IMG/VR virus record: IMGVR_UViG_3300034062_004332
Span: 1 to 64,000 of that record
Source: a virus
Strand: one strand, 5' to 3'
Length of the DNA stretch: 64,000 bases
This document shows positions 4,998-31,922 of the stretch, piece by piece (positions within the stretch are counted from its first letter, which is position 1; every line of letters begins with the position of its first letter). The translations under genes were made by a program, and so were the position numbers. The notes beneath the pieces are model-generated. The model saw nothing but the letters and a program-made list of their open reading frames with translations, was not told the origin of the DNA and ran no database searches.

Positions 4998-5900
4998 TAC
5001 AGTGAGCCTCACTGTTACTTAACAACTAGACCAACGTGTTAGCGTCTTGCAAACATTATGGGGCGACACTTACATCTCATGGATGTAATGTTCCATGCCC
5101 TAGTTATCTGTGCGGGGCTACAGATGGCGTTGTACAGTAACAGTGAAGATCACTGTAGGCAGACTAGATACAGTTGGAAGGATAGCGTCAGGATCATTAT
5201 TGATCCTCACTAGATCTAAGTTTGATCCGGTCTGCTGACAGCGTACGTTTAATCAGGCCCCCCATAAAGAGTAAGCCTGACAGCATTTGTGAAACATAAT
5301 CAGCGCACAGATTAGATACAGATCACACAATAACCTAGGCTTAGTTACATTGTCTCGCCATCGTGAGACTACCGCTCAGTGGGGAACAATGCAGACCGGC
5401 GTGGTTACAATAACCAAACCAGTTAGCTATAGGTACAGTGTGACACTGTAACTAACCTGCACGCTGACAATGTAGATACATTGTGCCTGCAACTTAGGTA
5501 AGCTAAGAGTGTTTATCCAATACGTTAGAACGTAAGGCCTACTCAATTCGGCTACATTGTCCTAACTTACCTGTAGATTATGAGAGAATAATTGCGGCAG
5601 GTTTCGTACATCACCTCACGGCTTTCCTACTACGCGCACAACTATTCTGTTGTCAAGGTTCGTCAACCTTTCAACCCTTAAAGTCTGCCGCTCACGTTCA
5701 ACCAAACCGCGCGGCCTTTGCTTACTGATCGGCAGCCCGTATGGGTTGCTTACGTTCGGCGGCTCGCGTGGTGGGCCGTTCGGCCTGACGCAGACTTCTC
5801 AGGTTTTCAAGGTTCAACCGATCCCTGATGGATCAGTGAACCCATATTGGGGGTGGGGGTGCCCCCCATCAACGAACCTTGTGCCGGTCTCTCGATTGGC
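4998..5900. other. Hairpin-dense non-coding region
   Basis: No credible ORF of either strand. Inverted repeats follow one another every 30-70 bases: ACAGTGAG/CTCACTGT (5000), TACATC/GATGTA (5071), ATCTGT/ACAGAT (5106), ACAGTGA/TCACTGT (5139), AGGATCA/TGATCCT (5190), TACAGTGTGACACTGTA (5434), ACAATGTA/TACATTGT (5467), ACGTT/AACGT (5523), AAGGTT/AACCTT (5656) and GGTTCA/TGAACC (5812). Three are ACAGTG/CACTGT type, and TAGATACA recurs three times (near 5165, 5313 and 5472). It could be a replication origin, a long structured leader of the leftward operon, or a structured RNA. Confidence 0.65.
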
Positions 5901-5938
5901 ACACTCCACCGGGTCTGGGGCAAGGGCAGGGAAGGAAC

Positions 5939-6036
5939 TGCGCACACGCACACGCACCCGCGTATGTAACGCGCACACACGCACACATGCGGGCACACGC
6001 ACGCACACACGCACGCGCCCACGCGCACGCACGCGT
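5939..6036. repeat. Alternating CA/CG tract, Z-DNA-prone
   Basis: Almost 100 bases made nearly wholly of CACA, CGCA and CGCG steps on the top strand. Alternating purine-pyrimidine runs of this kind favour left-handed DNA under negative supercoiling. The apparent ORFs through it are low-complexity Arg/Thr or Val/Cys strings and are not genes. It directly joins the hairpin-rich region and ends two bases before the box TATAAATA (6038-6045). Confidence 0.85.
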
Positions 6037-6037
6037 T

Positions 6038-6045
6038 TATAAATA
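6038..6045 (+). promoter_or_regulatory. TATAAATA box
   Basis: Exact match to the octamer of T4-type late promoters, at the edge of the alternating CG/CA tract. No gene follows closely on the top strand and no sigma-gp55 system is visible here, so it may be chance or an easily melted site. Confidence 0.25.
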
Positions 6046-6152
6046 ACTCAGGCACCACCCCCATAGTGTGATACAACAGATACGTTGTTGTAGCTAACTC
6101 ACAAAGTATAAAGAATAGCTAACTGGTTTGTATAAGCTTATGCTTACGATTA

Positions 6153-6199
6153 CGATTGCACTCCGGTTGTTATAGCTCACCGCAATCGGCCTTTTTTTT
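6153..6199 (+). terminator. Intrinsic terminator, no upstream gene
   Basis: CGATTGC and GCAATCG close a 22-base loop, followed by GC and eight T residues. It ends a rightward transcript, yet no protein gene lies upstream on that strand for 6 kb. This suggests that the hairpin-rich region is itself transcribed rightward. Confidence 0.6.
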
Positions 6200-6443
6200 A
6201 TACGCGCGCGTTTCACGTCGGGGGCGGCGAGAAGGTTTTTGGTAGCGAGCGGGTAAAACGGGGTCAAAATCTCTGGTATCAGCATAGTAACAGGGGCGCA
6301 AATGCGCAAAACGCCGCGTGGCTACTGCCAAATGCGCCTTTCAAGTCTTTACGGGGCGCTGTTTTTTGTGTGCGTATGGTGACTTAGGCGCCTAGAAAAA
6401 AATTTCGGCGCGGAAATGCTGCCTAGAATATTTTTAGTCTTCT

Positions 6444-6581
6444 ATGAGCCCTATGACTGGCACTAAAGAGGAGCGTATTCGCAAGCTTGAGGCGGCTCTT
6501 GCCGTTGCTGAGCGGGTCAAAAACGGGTTTTTGGCGGCAAACCTGCGGGAAGCGTTGCGTGATGCGCTACGCGAGGTCTGA
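6444..6581 (+). CDS. Short helical protein (45 aa)
   Basis: Unlisted ORF encoding MSPMTGTKEERIRKLEAALA then a charged, Ala-rich helix ending REALRDALREV. The whole product should be one long amphipathic helix or coiled coil. A TAGAAT box lies 15 bases before the ATG, similar to boxes in front of many rightward genes. The first rightward gene after the non-coding region; a palindrome follows its stop. Confidence 0.5.
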   Translation: MSPMTGTKEERIRKLEAALAVAERVKNGFLAANLREALRDALREV

Positions 6582-16648: not shown

Positions 16649-17416
16649 ATGGCAATACCTGTTATCGGCACTGGGGTTGTTAACGCGCCTCATTGGGTTT
16701 ATAGACTGTTCTACAGTATTGATTACCCTGTTGACACTTTTGTTGTATTTAACAACAACGGGCGCGATCAGATTACTAAGGAGTTGGATCTGTTGACTCA
16801 GATTCCTCATAAATACGTCCGCGAGGTTAAGGTGTGCCACCTTCCTCACAACATCGGGTGTAGTGGGTATTGGAATCTATTAATAAAGTGCTATATGATG
16901 AGCCCCTATTGGGTTATCGTGAACCATGATATTATGTTTACACCGGGTTGTCTAGAGCGCATGGTAAGCCACGCCGCTGATGCGGAAACAGGTATTGTCC
17001 ACGGGGAGGATGGGAGTTGGGACGTTTTTCTGATCAAGGATTGGGTGGTGCAGCAGTTTGGTTTATTTGATGAGAATTTAGCTCCTGCGTATTGTGAAGA
17101 TATGGATTATGGAATGCGTTTTAAACACAAGGAATTAAAGCGCTGTAAGTCTATTGGTTTGCCGTATTTTCATGGCGAGACTTCGGGAGACTATGCGGAC
17201 GGCTCGCAAACGTGGCGCTCGGAGCCTGAGTTGGCGGAAAAAATTCACCTGTCCCATGAGCTGAACAAACAGTACCTTCACGCCAAGTGGAGCCCAGCGT
17301 GGCAACATCATGTCGATGGGGAGGTGTACCAAACTCCGTTCAACAACCCGGCTATTCCTCTTGATTTCACTACGTACGATCTACATTTTGTACGCTCTAA
17401 GAATCTGGGTTTTTGA
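16649..17416 (+). CDS. GT-A type glycosyltransferase (family 2-like)
   Basis: 255 residues. Opens PVIGTGVVNAPHWVYRLFYS with VFNNNG like family-2 glycosyltransferases; HNIGCSGYWNLLIK and VIVNHDIMFTPGCLE give the N-x-x-x-x-x-N and D-x-like nucleotide/metal site (NHDI); later DENLAPAYCEDMDYGMRFK supplies the acceptor-side ED motif. Transfers a sugar from a nucleotide donor; acceptor unknown. Pairs with the divergent FkbM gene. Confidence 0.85.
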   Translation: MAIPVIGTGVVNAPHWVYRLFYSIDYPVDTFVVFNNNGRDQITKELDLLTQIPHKYVREVKVCHLPHNIGCSGYWNLLIKCYMMSPYWVIVNHDIMFTPGCLERMVSHAADAETGIVHGEDGSWDVFLIKDWVVQQFGLFDENLAPAYCEDMDYGMRFKHKELKRCKSIGLPYFHGETSGDYADGSQTWRSEPELAEKIHLSHELNKQYLHAKWSPAWQHHVDGEVYQTPFNNPAIPLDFTTYDLHFVRSKNLGF

Positions 17417-20706: not shown

Positions 20707-21233
20707 TCTCACAAGCAATCGGGAATTCCAAGACTGTTGCGGACTGGCTGGCGTCTTTAGATAGCTCCAACAAAGACGCGTTTGTTCACTATGCAAAAAA
20801 TGCAGTTAGTGACATCGAAGCGTATCTGTACGCCAGGTTTTTAAAGCCGAGATACGACGGCAGCATCAGCGATCTAACCGCGTGGATTCAAGAGAAGTAC
20901 CCCAAGAGTGACTTGCGAAAAGTCTTGCTTATCGAGATTGACGAGCTGCAAGACGATATTCGTAAAGTTAGAGATATGACCGTGACGGGGATGCTAGATC
21001 ACGCCACGGCGGCAACTAAGATTTCAGCGCTCCAGAAAGAACTGCGGTCACACATTCAATCGGTTCGCGCCATGTCTGATGGCATGGACCGCCGTGGTTT
21101 GTTACTGGCTGGCGCCGATCGTTGTTTGCGCGAGCTGAACCAGACCTTTGATTCGCAGCCGACGATTCAAACGTTGCTCGAAGATGCCGCGATGCTGGTC
21201 TGGTCTGTGCTCGAACGGGAAGAGAAAAGTTAG
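20703..21233 (+). CDS. Candidate terminase small subunit
   Basis: 176 residues, helical, with a basic DNA-binding-like N-terminal domain (YARFLKPRYDGSISDLTAWI) and a central coiled coil (LIEIDELQDDIRKVRDM). Size, helical content and position upstream of the large terminase (with two reverse-strand genes between) fit a small terminase subunit, but no signature is decisive and another helical assembly protein is possible. Convergent overlap of four bases with the GH130-like gene. Confidence 0.45.
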   Translation: MISQAIGNSKTVADWLASLDSSNKDAFVHYAKNAVSDIEAYLYARFLKPRYDGSISDLTAWIQEKYPKSDLRKVLLIEIDELQDDIRKVRDMTVTGMLDHATAATKISALQKELRSHIQSVRAMSDGMDRRGLLLAGADRCLRELNQTFDSQPTIQTLLEDAAMLVWSVLEREEKS

Positions 21234-22315
21234 TCGATTGGTTGCAGTCGTTTAACGATGTTCTCCAGCGGGGTTCTGAAGATCCCCATGAAGGCATCGT
21301 TGACTCCCAGTGACATAACTAGCTCTGTGTTTTCAACGTAGGCACCAAACGGCAGAATCACTGCGGGCTGGAATGACACAATGTTGCCGCCCACGTCGGT
21401 CCAAGAAATCAGACGATCGTGCAGAGATCCAGAAAACAAAGGTTTTGGATCGACATGCGTTACCTTAGTGAAGTCACGGTCGACCATGTAGGCACCCAGA
21501 TGATACAGGAGATATGAAAAGCCTGTATTGTCTCGGGTCATGTGCTTCCAGTGGTAGAAGATCAGATGCCCGTAGCCTAGGTTGATGGGTGCTAGCGAGT
21601 TGAACGTTGGACATCCGCCGGTAACACGATCTAGTGCAGACGTGTCGATTTCTGTGTTTTTATCTTTTTCCGATTCGATAATTAGAGGCCGCGTGGAGTA
21701 CAGGCACTTCAGCTCATCCTTGTGCGAGAAGAAGCACCAGTTCTTCTCCGGTTTGCCTACGACCCGGTTTTGACCGATCGGGGGGATTGCCGGGTACTGG
21801 GCTTCACCATCTTTGTTGATGTAGCAGACAATAACTTTGGGATGGTCAAAGAGTTTCTTGTCCCCTTTGTTGTACTTGCTCGCATAGGTCGATCCGACGA
21901 ACTGGATATACAGTTCCTCGTCAGGTCCTCTGAACAGCCGTGGGTCTTCGTAGCTAAGCCTATGCGGCTTGGACCGAATCTTCTTGGCGCCCAAGATCGT
22001 TGTGTCGTTAGCTAGTTCGCCTAGATATACTTCCGTTGGCGTGTTGTTCAGGTAAAAGTAGTTATTGTCGTAGCGGAAGCAGAATGGCTCAGGTTGCGCT
22101 CGCCACGCGATCAAAGTTCGGTTGCCGTGTTTGATGATGCTGGGACTGAAGTTAGCTACAGCTTTGTCTGGCAGCCCATGTACAATTCGGGTGAATTTGC
22201 CGCCGAGTTGTTCTGCCTGTTGGTAGACGTTTGGGATTCCTTCTTCTTCCGTTCGGATTAGTTGCGCAACGCCGGAATAGGCGTGGAAGTAGCGGTTGGT
22301 TGACTGCATAATCAA
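21230..22315 (-). CDS. GH130/GH43-like five-bladed beta-propeller protein
   Basis: 361 residues. FSPSIIKHGNRTLIAWRAQP opens the first blade, LSYEDPRLFRGPDEELYIQF carries the EDPR motif, EKNWCFF and the ending ELVMSLGVND match glycoside-phosphorylase (GH130) and related mannosyl enzymes. Such enzymes break or form mannosidic bonds with phosphate; some viral relatives act as glycosyltransferases. Overlaps the upstream GT4 gene by four bases, so both form a reverse-strand glycan operon. Confidence 0.75.
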   Translation of the reverse strand: MIMQSTNRYFHAYSGVAQLIRTEEEGIPNVYQQAEQLGGKFTRIVHGLPDKAVANFSPSIIKHGNRTLIAWRAQPEPFCFRYDNNYFYLNNTPTEVYLGELANDTTILGAKKIRSKPHRLSYEDPRLFRGPDEELYIQFVGSTYASKYNKGDKKLFDHPKVIVCYINKDGEAQYPAIPPIGQNRVVGKPEKNWCFFSHKDELKCLYSTRPLIIESEKDKNTEIDTSALDRVTGGCPTFNSLAPINLGYGHLIFYHWKHMTRDNTGFSYLLYHLGAYMVDRDFTKVTHVDPKPLFSGSLHDRLISWTDVGGNIVSFQPAVILPFGAYVENTELVMSLGVNDAFMGIFRTPLENIVKRLQPID

Positions 22316-23484
22316 ACAAGAAGATCAGTAATGGCTTTAGAGAATCCCTTGGCGATGTGCTCCCAGCGATATTCTTTGCGCTGAGTCAGTGCATAGCACG
22401 CATCGGCAACCTCCTCGTAAGTTTCCTTGTTTGTGTACAGCTCATTCAGGCAGTCAACCACGCTGTCGATATTGACTAGACCGCGCACAACCCCAAGATC
22501 TTTATCCGTCACCCAGGTTGCAATTTCAGCAGTCATCCCTGCGCCGTCCCACAGATCGTGGCATACGGTGTGATTAGGGACTACCTGAGGTTTATGGCAC
22601 CCGGCGTGCTCAAAGCTGACAAGGCCCCAACCTTCGCCATCGGCTGTGTTTAACCCAACGTCCGTGGCGTTATAGATCCGGTTGAGAAGTTCATCCGGCG
22701 GCGCATCTAGATAAGAAATTGAATTTGAGGTCAAGACAAGTCGGTTGAATGGGTCCAAACCGTACCGTTCCATTTCCCTTTGGAACATCGGCATGATGTC
22801 CCAACCTAGATCCTTCAGGCCCATGTGTAGATACAACATGGTATCTGGTTTATCTACGGCAAACTTGGCGAATGCCTGAACCGTCAGATCAATACGTTTT
22901 CTGGGTTGGTTTCTGTTGCCATTGAAGACAATGAATTTGTCTTTGGGGAGACCCAGGCTGTCGCGAGCTTCGTCGCGGGACATGGGTTTGAACCGCTCGC
23001 TGTCAACGCCGTGCGGCAGCACTGCCATTCGCTGCGGATTGATCTTGTGTTTCAGTAGACGCTCCGCACTACCCACGGTGAATGTCGTGGCCAGATCCCA
23101 GTGCTCGATGTTGCGGAGCATATCTGGGTAGTAGGCTTCGCTATCTGTAGGGAAGTAAGCCAGAAACTTAAAGTTGTGCTGCTCTTTCAGGAAGTGAATT
23201 TTCTCCCAAACCTGATTAAGCACCCAGATGTCATTGAGCCCGATAAATACGTCAGGTTGGACCTTAGCTACGATCTCGGGGAGCCGCTGCAGCCCAAATC
23301 GATCCGGCGCGTTCACCGTGGCTGCTGGGTAGATGTCGAACGGATACTCGTGCGGATCCCCGACTGAGTTAATCCCGATTACTGTAACGTCGTGATCTTT
23401 ATGTAGGTGATCTAATACGCTGTGTGTTACTCGCCCGAAGCCGGTATTAGAGCACGCGTCTCCATACCAAAGAACTTTCGCCAT
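22312..23484 (-). CDS. GT4-type glycosyltransferase
   Basis: 390 residues, GT-B fold. N-terminal VLWYGDACSNTGFGRVTHS with the Gly-rich acceptor loop, mid-protein VLPHGVDSERFKPMSRDEAR, donor-site FIVFNGNRNQPRKRIDLTVQ and the E-x7-E region ADGEGWGLVSFEHAGCHKPQ are classical family-4 features. Retaining sugar transfer from a nucleotide sugar is expected. First gene of the reverse-strand pair and divergent from the terminase. Confidence 0.92.
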   Translation of the reverse strand: MAKVLWYGDACSNTGFGRVTHSVLDHLHKDHDVTVIGINSVGDPHEYPFDIYPAATVNAPDRFGLQRLPEIVAKVQPDVFIGLNDIWVLNQVWEKIHFLKEQHNFKFLAYFPTDSEAYYPDMLRNIEHWDLATTFTVGSAERLLKHKINPQRMAVLPHGVDSERFKPMSRDEARDSLGLPKDKFIVFNGNRNQPRKRIDLTVQAFAKFAVDKPDTMLYLHMGLKDLGWDIMPMFQREMERYGLDPFNRLVLTSNSISYLDAPPDELLNRIYNATDVGLNTADGEGWGLVSFEHAGCHKPQVVPNHTVCHDLWDGAGMTAEIATWVTDKDLGVVRGLVNIDSVVDCLNELYTNKETYEEVADACYALTQRKEYRWEHIAKGFSKAITDLLV

Positions 23485-23537: not shown

Positions 23538-26261
23538 ATGCCGAGTCGGGAATCGTTTGCTTACCGCCGTGGGACTCAGTTTAAAGCAGTTCGTGCGCAG
23601 GAGAGCGCTCCAGTAACCGTAGATAACATCTATGCTAAAGCGGCAAACGACTTCCAGACCTTCTGTACGGTACTGGATAAACCACCCGCTAAGCACATGT
23701 TAGAGTGGCACCAGCACTTAATTACAGGTGAGTCTAATAAGTACTTGCTAGATATTGCAGGACCTAATCTTGACATTTTAAGTCCGCGAGGGCCTCTGCA
23801 TCCAGACACAGAGGTTGCAACTCCCTTGGGCTGGAGGCCACTTAAAAATTTAAATATAGGAGATTTGGTTTACGGGGACGACGGTGAGCCAACAGAAGTT
23901 CTAGATGTAATGTCCTACGGTTCCACAAAGTTATTTGAGGTGACGTTTTCGGATGGAACTTCAATGGTTTGTGATGCGTCGCATCGGTTTGATGTCAGAC
24001 GCATGGGGACAGACCCAAAGGGGACCTACCGTACAATGACTTTGCAGGAGATAAAAGATTTTGTTACTACTGGGATTAAAGGTAACTGGAGGACCGGGAT
24101 TCAGCGCACAGTGCGCCAAGCGTTGCCGGGAGAAACACCGTGGCTAGATACAAGAGGTCACAGCAGGTATCAGGTTCCGGTCACTGCTCCTATTAATTAT
24201 CCAGAAGCTGATTTGCCTCTCCACCCTTATTTAATCGGTGTTCTTCTAGGGGATGGAGGTTTAACAGATAAAACTTCTATAAACCTCACAACTATTGATA
24301 CAGATATAGTTGATTTTATTAATACTATCTTGCCTGAAGATACTATTTTAGTTGAGCGGTCGTATGAATCTCGGAAGTACTCATATCAGTTTCAGACGAC
24401 CCAGGGTGTAAAAAAAACTATTATAGATGGCAGAAGAGGAGGCTTTAAAAAAGAAATTTCTCTACATTTAGAGAACTTGGGTATGCGAGGTAAAGGGGCG
24501 TTAGAGAAGTCTATTCCTAAACAATATTTATATGGGTCTGTGGAGCAGCGTGAATGGCTTCTGCGCGGCCTTATGGATACGGATGGCACACGAATGTCTC
24601 GTAGCCAGCATCAAAGCGATTCTGGTCGCGGAGGGTTAGCGTTCGGTAGCTCTAGCCTACAACTTATTACAGACTTTATAGAGCTTGTACGCTCTTTAGG
24701 TGGTGTTGCGTACTTTAATAAACCATATTATCCTCATTACTTTAAAGGCAAAGAAAAGATTGTAAGTAAAAATTTAGCTTATAGATGCAGCTTTGCATTG
24801 CCTGCTGACATCAAGCCGTTTTTCTGCAAACGTAAGTCTGACGCTTATAAGGGTCCAGTATCTTCTAGATCTAATCGAGGTGTCGTTCGATCGATTATAG
24901 ACATTAAACCGTGCGGGGAGAGCCCTGTAATGTGTATCCGCGTGGCTAATCCAAAAGAACGTTTCGTTATAAAAGATTATGTAGTTAGTAAAAATAGCGC
25001 CAAATCTACGGTCTTGAATTTATTTACTGCATGGATTATTGGGAGGCACACCAGCGCTCAGTTGCCTCTACAGATTATTTACGTTTCGTACAACATCAAT
25101 ACGGCTATACCGAAGAGTCGGATTATCAAGCAGATCATCGACTCTGTTGAGTTCAAGAAGGTATTCCCTCGTGTAAAACTCAAGACGGGGATGCAGTCAG
25201 ACGTTGGCTGGTCAATTGATTTTGAGTACGCTGGTATCCCTCGCGTAGGTGATGAAGAATTTACTCTAAGAGCTGCAGGATTAAGAGGATCAATTACATC
25301 AAAAAGGGCTCACCTTGTTATTATAGATGACCCGATCAAGTCAAGTACCGACATTAAGAACCCTATTATTAGAGAAGAGATGAATAACAACTGGTCTTCT
25401 GTGATCTCTCCAATTATTTTTGAAGGTGGACGCTCTATATGTCTAGGGACGCGCTTCCACCCACTCGATATTCACAAAACTCTCTTCGTGGAGTCTAAGG
25501 GCTGGAAGCAGGTTACGCAAGAGGCTTTGACCTATGACAACCATGGTAATGCGATCAGTTACTGGCCCGAGCAGTGGTCTGTGAGCTACCTGCAACAGCA
25601 GAAGGAGCTGGACCCCGTGGCTTTTGCCTTCCAGTATCAACAGCAGCCCGTACTAACCTCTGATTTGATCGTTTCGCCTGAGTTGCTTGTCAAAGGTGAG
25701 GTAGTTACAGAGTTTGATTCGCTAGCGGTCGGCATTGACTTGTCGGCCAGCAGGAATGAAACCAGCGACTACACGGCTTTCGTGTTGGGCGGACGGCTCA
25801 AAGATATGTACTACATAATCGACGCGCACCAGTGTCGAAGTATCGGCAACTTAGAGAAGATTGATTTATTGTGTGACATGTTATTAGAGTGGGGGATTTT
25901 GGTTAAACAGGACAACATCTATGCACCTACATACTCCACGGTGACACTCGTGGTCGAATCCGTGGCGTATCAGGCGTCCTTGGCAGCGGACATCAAACGG
26001 GTCTTAATTAACGAGCGCGAATTGACGAATTTAAATATCCATGAAGTCAAAGGGTTCCGGGGCGACAAGCTGTCGCGTTTCCGAGGTACACTTGGTATCC
26101 TTGAACACAAGAAGGTGGTGTTTAACAAATATCGCAAGTTTGATGCGCTATTTGAACAGTTGATTAATGTGGGTGCTACGTCTCACGATGACTTACTGGA
26201 TGCTTACACACACCTGATCACGTTCCTTCAGCGTCGCGGTAGTTTTTCGATCGAATACTGA
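23538..26261 (+). CDS. terL: Large terminase subunit with intein
   Basis: 907-residue precursor. Residues 86-486 are an intein; the exteins join as SPRG|SAKST, restoring the ATPase P-loop. After the intein come LVIIDDPIKSSTD (Walker B) and VGIDLSASRNETSDYTAFVL (first Asp of the RNase-H-like nuclease) and a C-terminal HDDLLDAYTH with the final acidic residues. The spliced protein of ~506 residues has normal length. It cuts and pumps DNA into the prohead. A TAGAAT and a CTATAG sequence lie ~40 bases upstream. Confidence 0.95.
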   Translation: MPSRESFAYRRGTQFKAVRAQESAPVTVDNIYAKAANDFQTFCTVLDKPPAKHMLEWHQHLITGESNKYLLDIAGPNLDILSPRGPLHPDTEVATPLGWRPLKNLNIGDLVYGDDGEPTEVLDVMSYGSTKLFEVTFSDGTSMVCDASHRFDVRRMGTDPKGTYRTMTLQEIKDFVTTGIKGNWRTGIQRTVRQALPGETPWLDTRGHSRYQVPVTAPINYPEADLPLHPYLIGVLLGDGGLTDKTSINLTTIDTDIVDFINTILPEDTILVERSYESRKYSYQFQTTQGVKKTIIDGRRGGFKKEISLHLENLGMRGKGALEKSIPKQYLYGSVEQREWLLRGLMDTDGTRMSRSQHQSDSGRGGLAFGSSSLQLITDFIELVRSLGGVAYFNKPYYPHYFKGKEKIVSKNLAYRCSFALPADIKPFFCKRKSDAYKGPVSSRSNRGVVRSIIDIKPCGESPVMCIRVANPKERFVIKDYVVSKNSAKSTVLNLFTAWIIGRHTSAQLPLQIIYVSYNINTAIPKSRIIKQIIDSVEFKKVFPRVKLKTGMQSDVGWSIDFEYAGIPRVGDEEFTLRAAGLRGSITSKRAHLVIIDDPIKSSTDIKNPIIREEMNNNWSSVISPIIFEGGRSICLGTRFHPLDIHKTLFVESKGWKQVTQEALTYDNHGNAISYWPEQWSVSYLQQQKELDPVAFAFQYQQQPVLTSDLIVSPELLVKGEVVTEFDSLAVGIDLSASRNETSDYTAFVLGGRLKDMYYIIDAHQCRSIGNLEKIDLLCDMLLEWGILVKQDNIYAPTYSTVTLVVESVAYQASLAADIKRVLINERELTNLNIHEVKGFRGDKLSRFRGTLGILEHKKVVFNKYRKFDALFEQLINVGATSHDDLLDAYTHLITFLQRRGSFSIEY
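23793..24995 (+). mobile_element. TerL intein with LAGLIDADG endonuclease, class 3-like
   Basis: 401 residues between SPRG and SAKST. Splicing block A: PLHPDTEVATPLGWRPLKNL, starting with Pro instead of Cys/Ser. Block B: DGTSMVCDASHRFDV. Endonuclease motifs: LIGVLLGDGG and WLLRGLMDTDG. Block F: ESPVMCIRVANPKERFVIKD with an internal Cys. C-terminus VVSKN then Ser, i.e. Lys in place of the usual penultimate His. Non-nucleophilic first residue plus block-F Cys match class 3 inteins, but the Trp and Thr of their WCT triad appear as Phe and Ser. DNA is AT-richer than the exteins. Confidence 0.92.
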
Positions 26262-26262
26262 A

Positions 26263-27135
26263 ATGCGTTCAATCTGGGTTGCGATCACGGCGTTCCGTCC
26301 TATGGGGCGCCTCTCGGTTTTGTTGGACACTGTTTCACAGTACACTTCGTTTCCTTTTAAGGTTACTGTATGCGTTTATATTGATTACGACTCTCAGGGT
26401 GACTTAGAGTTCTTAGAGAGGTCTCTTGGTCTTTTCAAGAATCTGGATGTACAAGTTAAGGTTGCAAGCCCCGGTTACGAAGGCTGGTATTTGACTTGGG
26501 CGCATAAGACTGATTTAGCTTTAGAGATACTTAATCGACGGCATGACTTTTACATATACCAAGAAAATGATATGACACTGACTTTAGATAACTTCAACTA
26601 CTGGTTGGCGTGGAATCCACGGTTGTCTGATCTGGGGTTCGAGCCCGGCTTTGTTCGGTATGAAGAGTACAACGGACTTAAAGTTCCTTTCGACAATCAC
26701 TATGAATACTCGCTTATTGGCAAGACTCCTAATGTCTGGTCTGACGTAGGATTTACGGTGCCAAAAATATTAGTAGTTGATCATGAAGTTAGTGTATTTG
26801 TACAGGCAGCTAATCCGTATTATGGAGCGATGATTTTAAATCAAGCAGACGGTGAGAAATATATTCGCTCGGATAGCTACGATCCTCAGAAGAGTTACGA
26901 GCGGATTGGGATCCGAAACTGGCCTATTGCGGATCGGAGTTCTATGGGTTTGGCGTTTGAAGGCGTGCCTAATGGGTGTGAGCATCGTCGCTGCGTCCCT
27001 CTAGTCAAAAAAGATGGAAAGTATACGCTCAAACCGTCGAGTTTGATTAAACATAACGACTATAAATACGCCCCAGAGTTAAACAGAAAAGGGGTTAAAG
27101 TTATGGACTATACAGATATGTTTGTTTTACGGTGA
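26263..27135 (+). CDS. GT-A type glycosyltransferase
   Basis: 290 residues. N-terminus IWVAITAFRPMGRLSVLLDT with beta-strand VTVCVYIDYDSQ; the diphosphate-metal site is FYIYQENDMTLTLDNFNYWL (END in place of DxD); a Trp/Tyr-rich C-terminal half follows. Acceptor unknown. It starts one base after the terminase stop and overlaps the next short gene by four bases, so it is expressed with packaging genes, consistent with virion glycosylation. Confidence 0.75.
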   Translation: MRSIWVAITAFRPMGRLSVLLDTVSQYTSFPFKVTVCVYIDYDSQGDLEFLERSLGLFKNLDVQVKVASPGYEGWYLTWAHKTDLALEILNRRHDFYIYQENDMTLTLDNFNYWLAWNPRLSDLGFEPGFVRYEEYNGLKVPFDNHYEYSLIGKTPNVWSDVGFTVPKILVVDHEVSVFVQAANPYYGAMILNQADGEKYIRSDSYDPQKSYERIGIRNWPIADRSSMGLAFEGVPNGCEHRRCVPLVKKDGKYTLKPSSLIKHNDYKYAPELNRKGVKVMDYTDMFVLR

Positions 27136-28826: not shown

Positions 28827-29672
28827 ATGCTTTTCGATTGCTTCCTGTATTTCAATGAAAAGGAGCTTCTTGAGCTTCGCTATGAGATTTTAAAGGACGT
28901 TGTAGACGGTTTTATCATCACAGACGCAAACAGAACGTTTAAAGGCGACCCAAAACCGTTCACTTGCGTAGAAACTCTGCGTGAGTTGGGCATTCCTGAG
29001 GACAAAGTGCAGGTTTTGCACGTTGAGCTGCCCTCTAAAGAGGATATTTTGAACCCGTGGGTGCGGGAATACGCTCAGCGAGACGCTTTGGCGGTCGGAA
29101 TGCGTATGACTCCCCCCGATTCGGTGTTTTTCTTCAGTGATGTTGATGAGATTCCCCGACCGGATTCTCTTTTAGAGGCTGTAGAGCTGGCAAAACAGAG
29201 TCCAGAGCGCTGTGTTCGGCTGTCAATGCCGATGTTTTATGGTCGGGCCGATTTGCGAGTCATAAATCCTGATGGCAAGCCTGATGAAGCACCGAATAAC
29301 TGGATTTGTGGCACTGTTGTACTTCATCAGCACCTAGAGCAGAGTCTTTCGCAGATTCGAATGAACGTAAACGATATTGTTGTCGGTGATTGCGATGCTG
29401 GGTGGCACTTTTCTTGGATGGGGGACGCCGAACGGTTGAAAACTAAGGTGCAGTCGTTCTCCCACTGCTATGACGACATCCCAAACTCCGTGGCTCCGGC
29501 CAACAGCAAAGAAATGCTAGATTTTATGGATTCATACAGAGCTACTGCGGGCGCTACAGATCCTTTGGGGCGTACAGATCATATTTTGATCGATTACCCG
29601 CATGAGTCTTTGCCTCCTGAGCTGTTTAGAATAGATCGAGTCAGAAGCTTCCTGCTTCCGGCTTCGAATTGA
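28827..29672 (+). CDS. GT17-like glycosyltransferase
   Basis: 281 residues. The start MLFDCFLYFNEKELLELRYE and DVVDGFIITDANRTFKGDPK followed by VFFFSDVDEIPRPDSLLEAV match family 17 (beta-1,4-N-acetylglucosaminyltransferase-like): FNE-x-xLLxxR, VDxFxIxE/D, and DVDEIP as metal site. Later HFSWMG and IDYPHESLP agree. It would add a sugar to an existing glycan. Lies directly before the portal gene. Confidence 0.88.
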   Translation: MLFDCFLYFNEKELLELRYEILKDVVDGFIITDANRTFKGDPKPFTCVETLRELGIPEDKVQVLHVELPSKEDILNPWVREYAQRDALAVGMRMTPPDSVFFFSDVDEIPRPDSLLEAVELAKQSPERCVRLSMPMFYGRADLRVINPDGKPDEAPNNWICGTVVLHQHLEQSLSQIRMNVNDIVVGDCDAGWHFSWMGDAERLKTKVQSFSHCYDDIPNSVAPANSKEMLDFMDSYRATAGATDPLGRTDHILIDYPHESLPPELFRIDRVRSFLLPASN

Positions 29673-29693: not shown

Positions 29694-31922
29694 ATGCCTG
29701 CTGACAATCTGAGCGTTCGTAGCCGCTTTAGTGAGATTCTTGAGGCTGCTCGCACTCAGGATCGCAGCAAGCAGTCAGCGACTATGGTTGTGTTGGGCCA
29801 TCTGCAGCAGATGGTCCTTTTGATGCTTAAAAAGGGGCTGTTTTTCTACTGCGATCAAGATACATACGAAGCGCGGACTAAATTTTTACAGGATCTGATT
29901 GAGCTGAACCGGCTAGACATTCGTTTTCCGGCCATTATCAGGAATTTTCTGATCGACGGGTGCGGCTTGTTCTATTTCAGGCCAGATCAGAAACTTAAGT
30001 ACCAGATTTACTTTTTTAATAAAGATCAGTACAGAGTTTACCATGATGTAAATGGCGCTATTGAAGAAGTCGTCATTCTGTACAGCTATAAAGTTCGTAA
30101 CTCTATGCTGGGGCTTCCCAGTGAGTCTGTTGGTCAAAACAAGCGCTACGTTCGTCTGTCTTTGACAGCAGATACTGTTTCTGAGTACGAATCGAACACA
30201 GAACTGAGTTTTGACCTTGAGCCCGGTGGTCTGCTGACGCCTAAGAGTCAGAAACCAAATGCGCTTGGGTTTATTCCAGCCGTGGAGGTCTTAAATAAGC
30301 CAAACGCTAGCGGCACAGAAGGCGAGGGCGAGTTTGAGCAATTCATGGAAGCGGTCGTGCTCCATGACCAAATGATGACGAACATTGCCAAGAACATTGA
30401 GTTCTTCGGCAACCCCACGCTCGTTAGCTCGCGGCCTCGGAGTGATCTGGTCGAAGCAACTGGCTCGGATCGTAACTTTCGTCCGACTATTAGTAGTCAG
30501 AGTGGTTTCGGCGGAATCGATACTCCGTCCACGCGAGTTTCTGAGCCTTTCGGGGCCGGTAGTGCGTTCGGCGGTCTGCGGGTTCCGCGAATCATTGCCA
30601 ACGTTGAGCCCTCTGACCGGGTTGGTTTCTTGACGCCTGACCCGGTGAACGGGGACATGAACCGTTATGCCCTGCTGCTGCGCGAAGAGATTCGTACAGC
30701 GCTAGGCGGCGTGGATGAGATTTCGATCTCGGCTGGCGCAACTGCAACGGAAATTAAAGGTCTGATGGGTCGGGCTCAAGCCACGGCCATGCGAAAAAAC
30801 AAGAGCTTCTTGACCTACGGGTTCTGTAAACTCCTTGAGATGATTCTGTATCATCAGGAAAATGTATTCCGTCAGACGTTTGTAGAAGTTACAGGACTGA
30901 AGGCGCCGAAGCCTCCGACTGAGCAAACCCAAGAAGCGATTGCTCGGTACGAAAACCGAATAGCGAAGTTCGAGCAGGATGTCGATCGAAAGATTGCTGA
31001 GGCGCTCGAAAAGAACAAGATCCCGCGTGGCGTGTATGGTCTGCCCCCGGACGGCGATCGTACAGTTTCGTATAGATTCCAAGGTGATGTCTACGAAGAT
31101 ACAGCGTATGACATTAACCAAAAGTCTATTGTTGTTCGGAACTTACAAGAACTTGGTGTTGACAGCGTGGAAGCGCTGAAATTCTTGTTCCCCGATAAGA
31201 CTGATTCTGAGCGGGCGGAAATGCTTAAAGGCTTTCCATTCAGAATGGTTCAGCAAACTCAGGGCGCATTCAGCCAATTTCTATTATTATTGAATCAGAT
31301 GTTGCAGACGCCACATCCGCTTGCGCCGAATCAGCCGTTAGCCGCTGACCCTCGGCTCAACTTAACGGCCCTGTTATACAGGACTTTCGACCACCTTGCG
31401 CAGGAATTAACCTACTCGGGCAGCTATGAGCCAGCAGATCCCAGCTTCGATCCCGAGCCCGGTATCCCCGGCGGTAGCGGCCCCGCAGGCAGCGCCTTCG
31501 GTGGATACGGGTTCAACCAGTTACCCGCAATGGGTAGCAACTACCCAGGGGGCACCTTCGGTAGCTATGCCCCAACAGCCGTTGCCGGGAACACCGGCTA
31601 TGGCCCCTTCTACCAACAACCAGTTCAGCCAGTCTCCGTCCAGCTACTCCCCGAGCAATCCGTGGGAAGCGGCAATGAGCAGCCTGGAGCGGGTGGTTTC
31701 CCAAATCTCTCCGTCCCCCAGCCCGACAGCACAGTATCCCTCGTACCAAACGGTGCCGCAGGGTACAGCACAGTACAGTCCGAATTTACAGGCCCAACCG
31801 GCGCAATATCCGGCGGCCCTGGCTCCGCAGACCTCGTACAACAACGTCTCTACAACCCCGAATTCTTATCCGACTTCTACGGCAACTCCGCAACTCAGCG
31901 CAGAAACCGCAGCCGTCGTTAA
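29694..31922 (+). CDS. Portal protein
   Basis: 742 residues, length near N4- and T7-like portals. LIELNRLDIRFPAIIRNFLI and GCGLFYFRPDQKLKYQIYFF, then MEAVVLHDQMMTNIAKNIEF followed by Gly-rich loops, and the helix GVDEISISAGATATEIKGLM with a long stem helix (EAIARYENRIAKFEQDVDRK) fit the clip-stem-wing plan. The last ~165 residues are Gly/Pro/Ser-rich and are encoded by DNA that also encodes the next gene in another frame. It forms the DNA entry ring; assignment rests on fold pattern and position. Confidence 0.85.
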   Translation: MPADNLSVRSRFSEILEAARTQDRSKQSATMVVLGHLQQMVLLMLKKGLFFYCDQDTYEARTKFLQDLIELNRLDIRFPAIIRNFLIDGCGLFYFRPDQKLKYQIYFFNKDQYRVYHDVNGAIEEVVILYSYKVRNSMLGLPSESVGQNKRYVRLSLTADTVSEYESNTELSFDLEPGGLLTPKSQKPNALGFIPAVEVLNKPNASGTEGEGEFEQFMEAVVLHDQMMTNIAKNIEFFGNPTLVSSRPRSDLVEATGSDRNFRPTISSQSGFGGIDTPSTRVSEPFGAGSAFGGLRVPRIIANVEPSDRVGFLTPDPVNGDMNRYALLLREEIRTALGGVDEISISAGATATEIKGLMGRAQATAMRKNKSFLTYGFCKLLEMILYHQENVFRQTFVEVTGLKAPKPPTEQTQEAIARYENRIAKFEQDVDRKIAEALEKNKIPRGVYGLPPDGDRTVSYRFQGDVYEDTAYDINQKSIVVRNLQELGVDSVEALKFLFPDKTDSERAEMLKGFPFRMVQQTQGAFSQFLLLLNQMLQTPHPLAPNQPLAADPRLNLTALLYRTFDHLAQELTYSGSYEPADPSFDPEPGIPGGSGPAGSAFGGYGFNQLPAMGSNYPGGTFGSYAPTAVAGNTGYGPFYQQPVQPVSVQLLPEQSVGSGNEQPGAGGFPNLSVPQPDSTVSLVPNGAAGYSTVQSEFTGPTGAISGGPGSADLVQQRLYNPEFLSDFYGNSATQRRNRSRR

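Follow-up and report, generated by a model that had tools for sequence, protein, structure and literature searches.

A likely new variant of class 3 intein interrupts the P-loop of a viral terminase large subunit

We analysed a window of 64,000 nucleotides (positions 1 to 64,000) from the IMG/VR virus record IMGVR_UViG_3300034062_004332, which is 65,686 bases long, and describe here an intein inside its gene for the terminase large subunit (TerL). The intein separates the two halves of the Walker A motif, or P-loop. Of the canonical class 3 triad Trp-Cys-Thr (WCT; positions 12, 4 and 5 of blocks B, F and G, hence B:12, F:4 and G:5), it retains only the Cys. A sequence-only reading of this DNA had left two explanations standing, a new variant of class 3 or a splicing-impaired intein. 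Our analysis favours the first, given membership of a class 3 clade, an invariant Cys at F:4 and purifying selection; the second is disfavoured. We consider it very likely that this is a new, mobile variant of class 3 intein at a P-loop site, splicing by the class 3 route proposed below.

Results

The insert begins with PLHPDTEV and finishes with DYVVSKN, directly followed by the SAKST of the C-extein. It is open throughout on the forward strand, and the reverse strand across the intein-bearing stretch is packed with stops. In 216 open reading frames (ORFs) from the loci that we fetched, PRG runs directly into SAKS at this position; some loci were fetched twice, and 207 were usable for flank comparison. 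The empty alleles nearest to the window have ~81% nucleotide identity over the flanks. Other relatives carry an insert of 361–407 aa precisely between PRG and SAKS. Since more than 200 relatives have an uninterrupted site, and the insert matches PI-SceI and class 3 DnaB inteins, it is not a product of chance. Both the ORF and the empty-site relatives reproduce exactly the boundaries of the sequence-only reading, 23793-24995 within SPRG and SAKST. The host gene is the DNA-packaging motor gene of an S-EIV1-like (cyanophage-type) virus. Its product is closest, among phage records, to the TerL of Synechococcus phage S-EIV1 (53%), and the C-extein matches Terminase_6C (Pfam, E 1.4e-4) and termin_lrg_T7 (E 7e-9).

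The residues picked out earlier were also correct. The initial Pro, the block F Cys and the Lys-Asn end before Ser are Pro1, Cys381, Lys400-Asn401 and Ser+1, and the replacements of the block B Trp, block G Thr and penultimate His are Phe66, Ser399 and Lys400. A PDB search with the single sequence covered only blocks A and B and the endonuclease; block F needed a profile. Profile alignment to solved class 3 inteins places the block B H-x-W on His65 and Trp67 of MchDnaB1 and the block F Cys on its Cys124. The block F/G part of this alignment is weak alone (independent E-value 0.08–0.9), yet it is correctly placed, and the alignment of full-length relatives backs it. The original assignment of blocks B and F holds against the solved class 3 inteins.

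As expected for class 3, position 1 is not Cys, Ser or Thr, and F:4 is Cys; Cys381 is invariant in inteins at the same site and in all 99 tabulated relatives at other sites. The Trp and Thr of the class 3 signature are absent. Trp at B:12 is a signature and not a strict requirement, given the exception of the AceL NrdHF intein, which has Met. Class 1 inteins have a nucleophile at position 1, where this intein has Pro, and class 2 (KlbA-type) inteins have Asp at F:4, where it has Cys. Position F:13 is His in many class 3 inteins. A second Cys besides Cys381, Cys60 in block B (B:6), is shared by all of the 27 tabulated same-site inteins; by analogy with mycobacterial DnaBi1, it is a candidate disulfide partner of Cys381 in a redox switch.

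Table 1. Features of the TerL gene, its intein and the surrounding region of the window.
Feature	Coordinates	Strand	Remarks
TerL ORF	23538-26261	+	907 aa; terminase large subunit
TerL N-extein, 85 aa	23538..23792	+	ends LSPRG, first half of Walker A/P-loop; joined directly to SAKST in intein-less relatives
Intein, 401 aa, Pro1 to Asn401	23793-24995	+	in frame inside TerL; SPRG / P...KN / SAKST
Block A PLHPDTEVATPLG	23793..23831	+	Pro1 replaces Cys/Ser nucleophile; invariant in 28/28 intact same-site inteins
Block B SDGTSMVCDASHRF	23949..23990	+	Asp61 (B:7), His64 (B:10, invariant), Arg65 (B:11), Phe66 (B:12; canonical class 3 residue is Trp)
LAGLIDADG homing endonuclease domain	24225..24827 (approximate limits)	+	Pfam LAGLIDADG_3 E 1.8e-5, Hom_end E 0.0013; PI-SceI fold match over full length
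LAGLIDADG motif 1, LIGVLLGDGG	24231..24260	+	acidic residue intact
LAGLIDADG motif 2, LLRGLMDTDG	24558..24587	+	acidic residues intact
Block F VMCIRVANPKERF	24927..24965	+	Cys381 (F:4, codon 24933-24935), invariant, putative initiating nucleophile; Glu389 (F:13)
Block G DYVVSKN	24975..24995	+	Ser399 (G:5), Lys400 (G:6, penultimate), Asn401 (G:7); Ser+1 next
TerL C-extein	24996..26261, stop codon included	+	opens with Ser+1 of SAKST, which completes Walker A; Walker B (LVIIDDP); RNase H-like nuclease domain at the C-terminus
Portal-like protein gene	29694-31922		downstream of TerL
Two genes	26263-27135 and 28827-29672	+	between TerL and portal gene
Glycosyltransferase-like gene	22312-23484	-	directly upstream of TerL, with the next gene (PHROGs)
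Second minus-strand gene	21230-22315	-	directly upstream of TerL, with the preceding gene
Galactosyl transferase-like gene	16649-17416	+	farther upstream of TerL (PHROGs)

The Hint domain is split by a two-motif LAGLIDADG domain, as indicated by Pfam and by the match to PI-SceI, and the endonuclease looks intact from its motifs. An AlphaFold2 model of the intein, built on 38 window and IMG/VR sequences, has a predicted local distance difference test (pLDDT) score of 89 and a predicted template modelling (pTM) score of 0.90. VIA structure comparison matched the model to PI-SceI (Z 24.7 over 334 residues), the class 3 DnaB inteins 6bs8 and 6riy (Z 17.8, 1.5–1.8 Å; 1.5 Å over 123 residues), the class 1 intein gp41-1 (Z 17.4) and AceL NrdHF (Z 15.4). 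The predicted fold thus confirms an endonuclease-bearing intein, and not the intein class.

The same-site set comprises 28 distinct, intact inteins, of which 27 are tabulated and one, L382, came from a final scan. L128 is partial and reads VVTNN before the Ser; L205 was excluded as doubtful, with Cys F:4 absent at the aligned place. None of the 27 departs from Pro1, His B:10, Cys F:4, Asn G:7 or Ser+1, and neither does L382. Position B:12 is Trp in 15 of the 28 (14 without L382), Phe in nine and Ile in four; G:5 is Ser in 25, Leu in two and Thr in L382. The penultimate residue, G:6, is Lys in 15 of the 27, Ser in five, His in five, Cys in one and Asn in one, and L382 adds a His. At one site, the signatures thus run from WCT with a THN ending, through WCS with SHN and WCS with SKN, to FCS or ICS with Lys, Ser, Asn or Cys as the penultimate residue. 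The F-C-S triad with a non-His penultimate residue is common to relatives down to 38–39% identity. The FCS-Lys type is seen here only in metagenomic virus contigs, since tBLASTn of phage records gave no full-length relative above about 32%. The two same-site inteins with Leu at G:5 (L125 and L297; triad W-C-L) end SYLSLKN before the Ser and have lost the hydroxyl at G:5 too. We rejected the idea that L014 is a natural split intein, since another stop interrupts the C-extein on its contig and frameshift errors are likelier.

Trees were built with the signature columns left out, and with only four class 1 helicase inteins as the outgroup. The same-site inteins form one clade (ultrafast bootstrap 100/Shimodaira-Hasegawa-like approximate likelihood ratio test 100) that groups with WCT class 3 relatives, with the class 1 outgroup outside (100/100), as expected from common ancestry with class 3 inteins. 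In one subclade, to which L382 belongs, B:12 is Trp, B:11 is Leu, F:13 is His and G:6 varies among His, Lys and Ser. The other (17 members, 97/97), which includes the window intein, has no penultimate His, Arg or Lys at B:11 in 17/17, and Glu or Gln at F:13 in all except L088; Leu is found at B:11 in members of the sister clade. Phe or Ile occupies B:12 in a group of 12 within it (100/99) to which the window intein belongs. The Phe of L004 is separate, and this intein is positioned near Trp members. The same-site part of the tree requires at least two changes at B:11, four at B:12, three at F:13, two at G:5 and six at G:6. From these counts, Trp, Thr and His appear to have been lost piecemeal within inteins at this one site. 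The position of L382 (WCT, THN) inside the first subclade is compatible with an ancestral state or a reversal.

After clustering at 95% identity, 90/97 relatives at other sites are WCT with a penultimate His; they were found by similarity to the query, so the proportion holds for its kin rather than for class 3 inteins at large. L118 (FCS-His) and L107 (ICT-His) are among the exceptions. Position B:11 in other-site relatives is Leu or Ile in 93/99 and Arg once. A scan of bacterial and archaeal genomes gave distant relatives only; the tabulated class 3-type ones are WCT-His, and the others are class 1. Three further class 3-type inteins, L144 (IMGVR 3300019718), L184 (3300034375) and L115 (Vibrio phage D282), have His or Asn at B:12 and a THN C-terminus. 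Among 1701 class 3 inteins surveyed previously, Trp deviates in 6.1% and Thr in 4.6% (PMC7891396).

Nonsynonymous to synonymous divergence (dN/dS) is given for close pairs only, dS being saturated in most pairs. For the Hint domains of the window intein and its 95%-identical relative L001, dN is 0.008 and dS 0.41 (dN/dS 0.019); the ratio is 0.072 for the endonuclease and 0.007 for the C-extein. Because these ratios are low and dS is similar throughout (about 0.41–0.44), the intein has diverged in step with its host gene, both being constrained. A second pair, L053 and L061 (ICS triad, penultimate Ser), has inteins that are 98.7% identical in nucleotides and C-exteins that are 92.3% identical; fourfold sites are identical at 162/167 positions in the intein and 144/177 in the C-extein (p = 1.7e-6). 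An empty allele, L059, shares 97.9% identity with the L061 flanks. The simplest reading of this pattern is recent movement of the intein between alleles. The most decayed member of the set, L004, has lost the acidic residues of its endonuclease motifs (LLARGG, LDAAGS); it keeps P1, H64, F66, C381, S399 and N401, and its penultimate residue is Cys.

Discussion

How might this intein splice? In the class 3 pathway, Cys F:4 attacks, the N-extein passes to Ser+1 and Asn cyclises (PMC7891396, PMC4031507). Cys124, His65 and Thr143 of MchDnaB1 form a protease-like triad (PMC7664689), and the block B Trp of MsmDnaBi1 sits in a hydrophobic core pocket (PMC6195587). We propose that His64, held by Ser399, would distort the Gly(-1)-Pro1 bond, which Cys381 would attack to form a block F branched thioester. 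The N-extein would then be transferred to Ser+1, Asn401 would cyclise to release the intein, and an O-to-N shift would give SPRG-SAKST, an intact Walker A motif. Phe66 would pack into the core pocket where Trp normally sits, and the hydroxyl normally given by Thr would come from Ser399. By comparison with MsmDnaBi1, Phe or Ile is plausible in that pocket. As for the Thr, AceL NrdHF T144A still splices, about 10-fold slower (PMC7891396), and, among the gp41-1 mutants at Thr123, T123S is the one whose C-cleavage in the absence of dithiothreitol suffers least (PMC12245125). Finally, the LAGLIDADG domain, predicted to be active, would home the element into empty TerL alleles.

Because both cyclisation His residues (F:13 and G:6) are missing, we propose assistance by Arg65 at B:11, placed by alignment with AceL NrdHF, which probably helps to polarise the C-terminal scissile carbonyl, as has been proposed for Arg69 of that intein. 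AceL NrdHF, an MCT intein with His at neither G:6 nor F:13, follows the class 3 route on a time scale of minutes; the residue next after its block B His is Arg69, 2.5 Å away from the C-scissile carbonyl, and splicing is slower in the R69A mutant (PMC7891396). We infer compensation by Arg65 from one evolutionary event and this one precedent.

Several observations weigh against our interpretation. The change from Leu to Arg at B:11 and the loss of the F:13 His fall near the same branch, such that the two together amount to essentially a single event rather than to independent evidence. The GX15bay intein (L097) combines Arg at B:11 with a penultimate His. Aromatic residues replacing Met70 of AceL NrdHF abolished activity (PMC7891396), so B:12 is context-dependent. 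The fold cannot tell class 3 from class 1 (Z 17.4 for gp41-1, against 17.8). Lastly, folding and endonuclease function could account for part of the purifying selection on Hint residues.

An alternative explanation is that the intein is splicing-impaired and decaying, with poor or no splicing, in a virus that packages badly or depends on co-infecting intein-free relatives. Three signature positions (Trp, Thr and the penultimate His) are indeed off consensus, and one class 3 intein, Arsp-FB24, is a known pseudogene, but in that case Cys F:4 and His B:10 are missing and the host gene has decayed (PMC3196547). However, different viruses have the altered residues in ORFs of 907–1252 aa that are intact, the Hint dN/dS is very low, L004 retained its splicing residues while losing endonuclease motif acids, and AceL NrdHF splices fast with comparable changes (PMC7891396). 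Moreover, the two halves of Walker A require splicing to be joined. The earlier inference that TerL, required for packaging, would be no ATPase without splicing is supported to the extent that its P-loop is not intact until then, and an inactive intein in TerL would hardly survive recent movement such as that of the ICS member. On this strong, though indirect, evidence we regard impairment as improbable, and the window intein as probably splicing-competent.

Less likely still is a class 2-like route, in which Ser+1 would attack the N-scissile bond directly and Cys381 would merely assist. Pro1 is not a nucleophile, and known class 2 inteins also lack a penultimate His, having Ser at G:6 (PMC4031507); nonetheless, all of them are KlbA orthologues needing Asp at F:4 (PMC4031507), whereas every F:4 residue here is Cys and the trees place the nearest relatives in class 3. 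Least likely of all is independent convergence of a class 1 lineage on class 3 chemistry, with Phe B:12 and Ser G:5 as leftovers, since the signature-free trees group the clade with WCT inteins and not with the class 1 outgroup, WCT and WCS members share the site, and Phe arises in the window's subclade and separately in L004.

Class 3 inteins in phage terminases (PMC5050341) and deviations from WCT (PMC7891396) are already known. The mycobacteriophage inteins TerL1-c and TerL1-e are likewise class 3 inteins in terminase ATPase domains, but WCT is reported as highly conserved there, and the terminase family and virus group are different (PMC5050341). MsmDnaBi1 and MchDnaB1 (PDB 6BS8, 6RIX, 6RIY; PMC6195587, PMC7664689) share the Hint fold, block order, block B DxxH and Cys F:4, but have the WCT triad and a penultimate His, lack an endonuclease and are inserted in DnaB. 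The closest parallel in residues, the split AceL NrdHF intein (PDB 6ZGQ; PMC7891396), also comes from a phage-like source and shares the absence of an N-terminal nucleophile, Cys F:4, a non-Trp B:12, the lack of G:6 and F:13 His, Arg B:11 and Ser+1; it differs in being split, without an endonuclease and in an unrelated host protein, with Met at B:12, Thr kept at G:5 and a penultimate Gly. The intein of Lactobacillus phage LfeInf gp087 (KP054477; L118) is class 3-type with an F-C-S triad, but keeps the penultimate and F:13 His, interrupts another gene and lies on a long branch outside the same-site clade. Its GenBank start looks too late, the block A motif VMTPSG lying upstream of the annotated start. 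The PhoH intein of GX15bay (MK557849; L097) is the best phage-record match to the window intein (32% over full length) and has Arg at B:11, but is WCT with a penultimate His. In the readable literature, which excludes the itemised deviants of the 1701-intein survey, we found no same-site lineage losing Trp, Thr and the penultimate His, and mostly the F:13 His, with selection, homing and surviving intermediates.

A relative outside the window has two inteins of different class in one TerL (L003:3746-7483): a class 3-type (FCS) intein in Walker A and a class 1 intein of 337 aa at Walker B (5528-6538), the latter also present in S-EIV1 (L096, KJ410740; 3322-4332). Inside the Walker B intein is a +1-frame ORF of 300–319 aa (L003:5589-6491 and L096:3326-4285, both +) that carries zinc-ribbon and HNH-like motifs, with weak Pfam scores, below curated cut-offs, for the L003 copy tested. 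The out-of-frame products of the two viruses are 57% identical and the in-frame inteins 38%, which makes the hidden frame the more constrained of the two; the inteins keep a recognisable splicing domain (Pfam Intein_splicing, E 1e-13 and 1e-11). This is apparently a hidden endonuclease overprinted on an intein. Phage methylases (ShiLan) are known to contain out-of-frame HNH elements, but no intein splicing domain accompanies them there (PMC11855218).

What is the significance of the P-loop lineage? One scenario, which we offer tentatively and lean against in its full form, is that the class 3 signature was replaced stepwise at one site (THN to SHN to SKN, Trp to Phe or Ile, with loss of both cyclisation His), that Arg at B:11 took over Asn cyclisation, and that His-free resolution of the branched intermediate became the rule in a whole homing lineage whose intermediates are still present. 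The WCT triad serves to recognise class 3 inteins, and Thr and His are held to be catalytic. A homing lineage under selection, without Trp, without Thr and largely without both cyclisation His, suggests that the indispensable residues there are just three: Cys F:4, His B:10 and the terminal Asn. Such inteins would be missed or misclassified by signature-based annotation. The lineage is a natural test of which residues class 3 chemistry needs, and its graded same-site series (WCT-His, WCS-His, WCS-Lys, FCS-Lys) provides natural sequences for testing what replaces the penultimate His.
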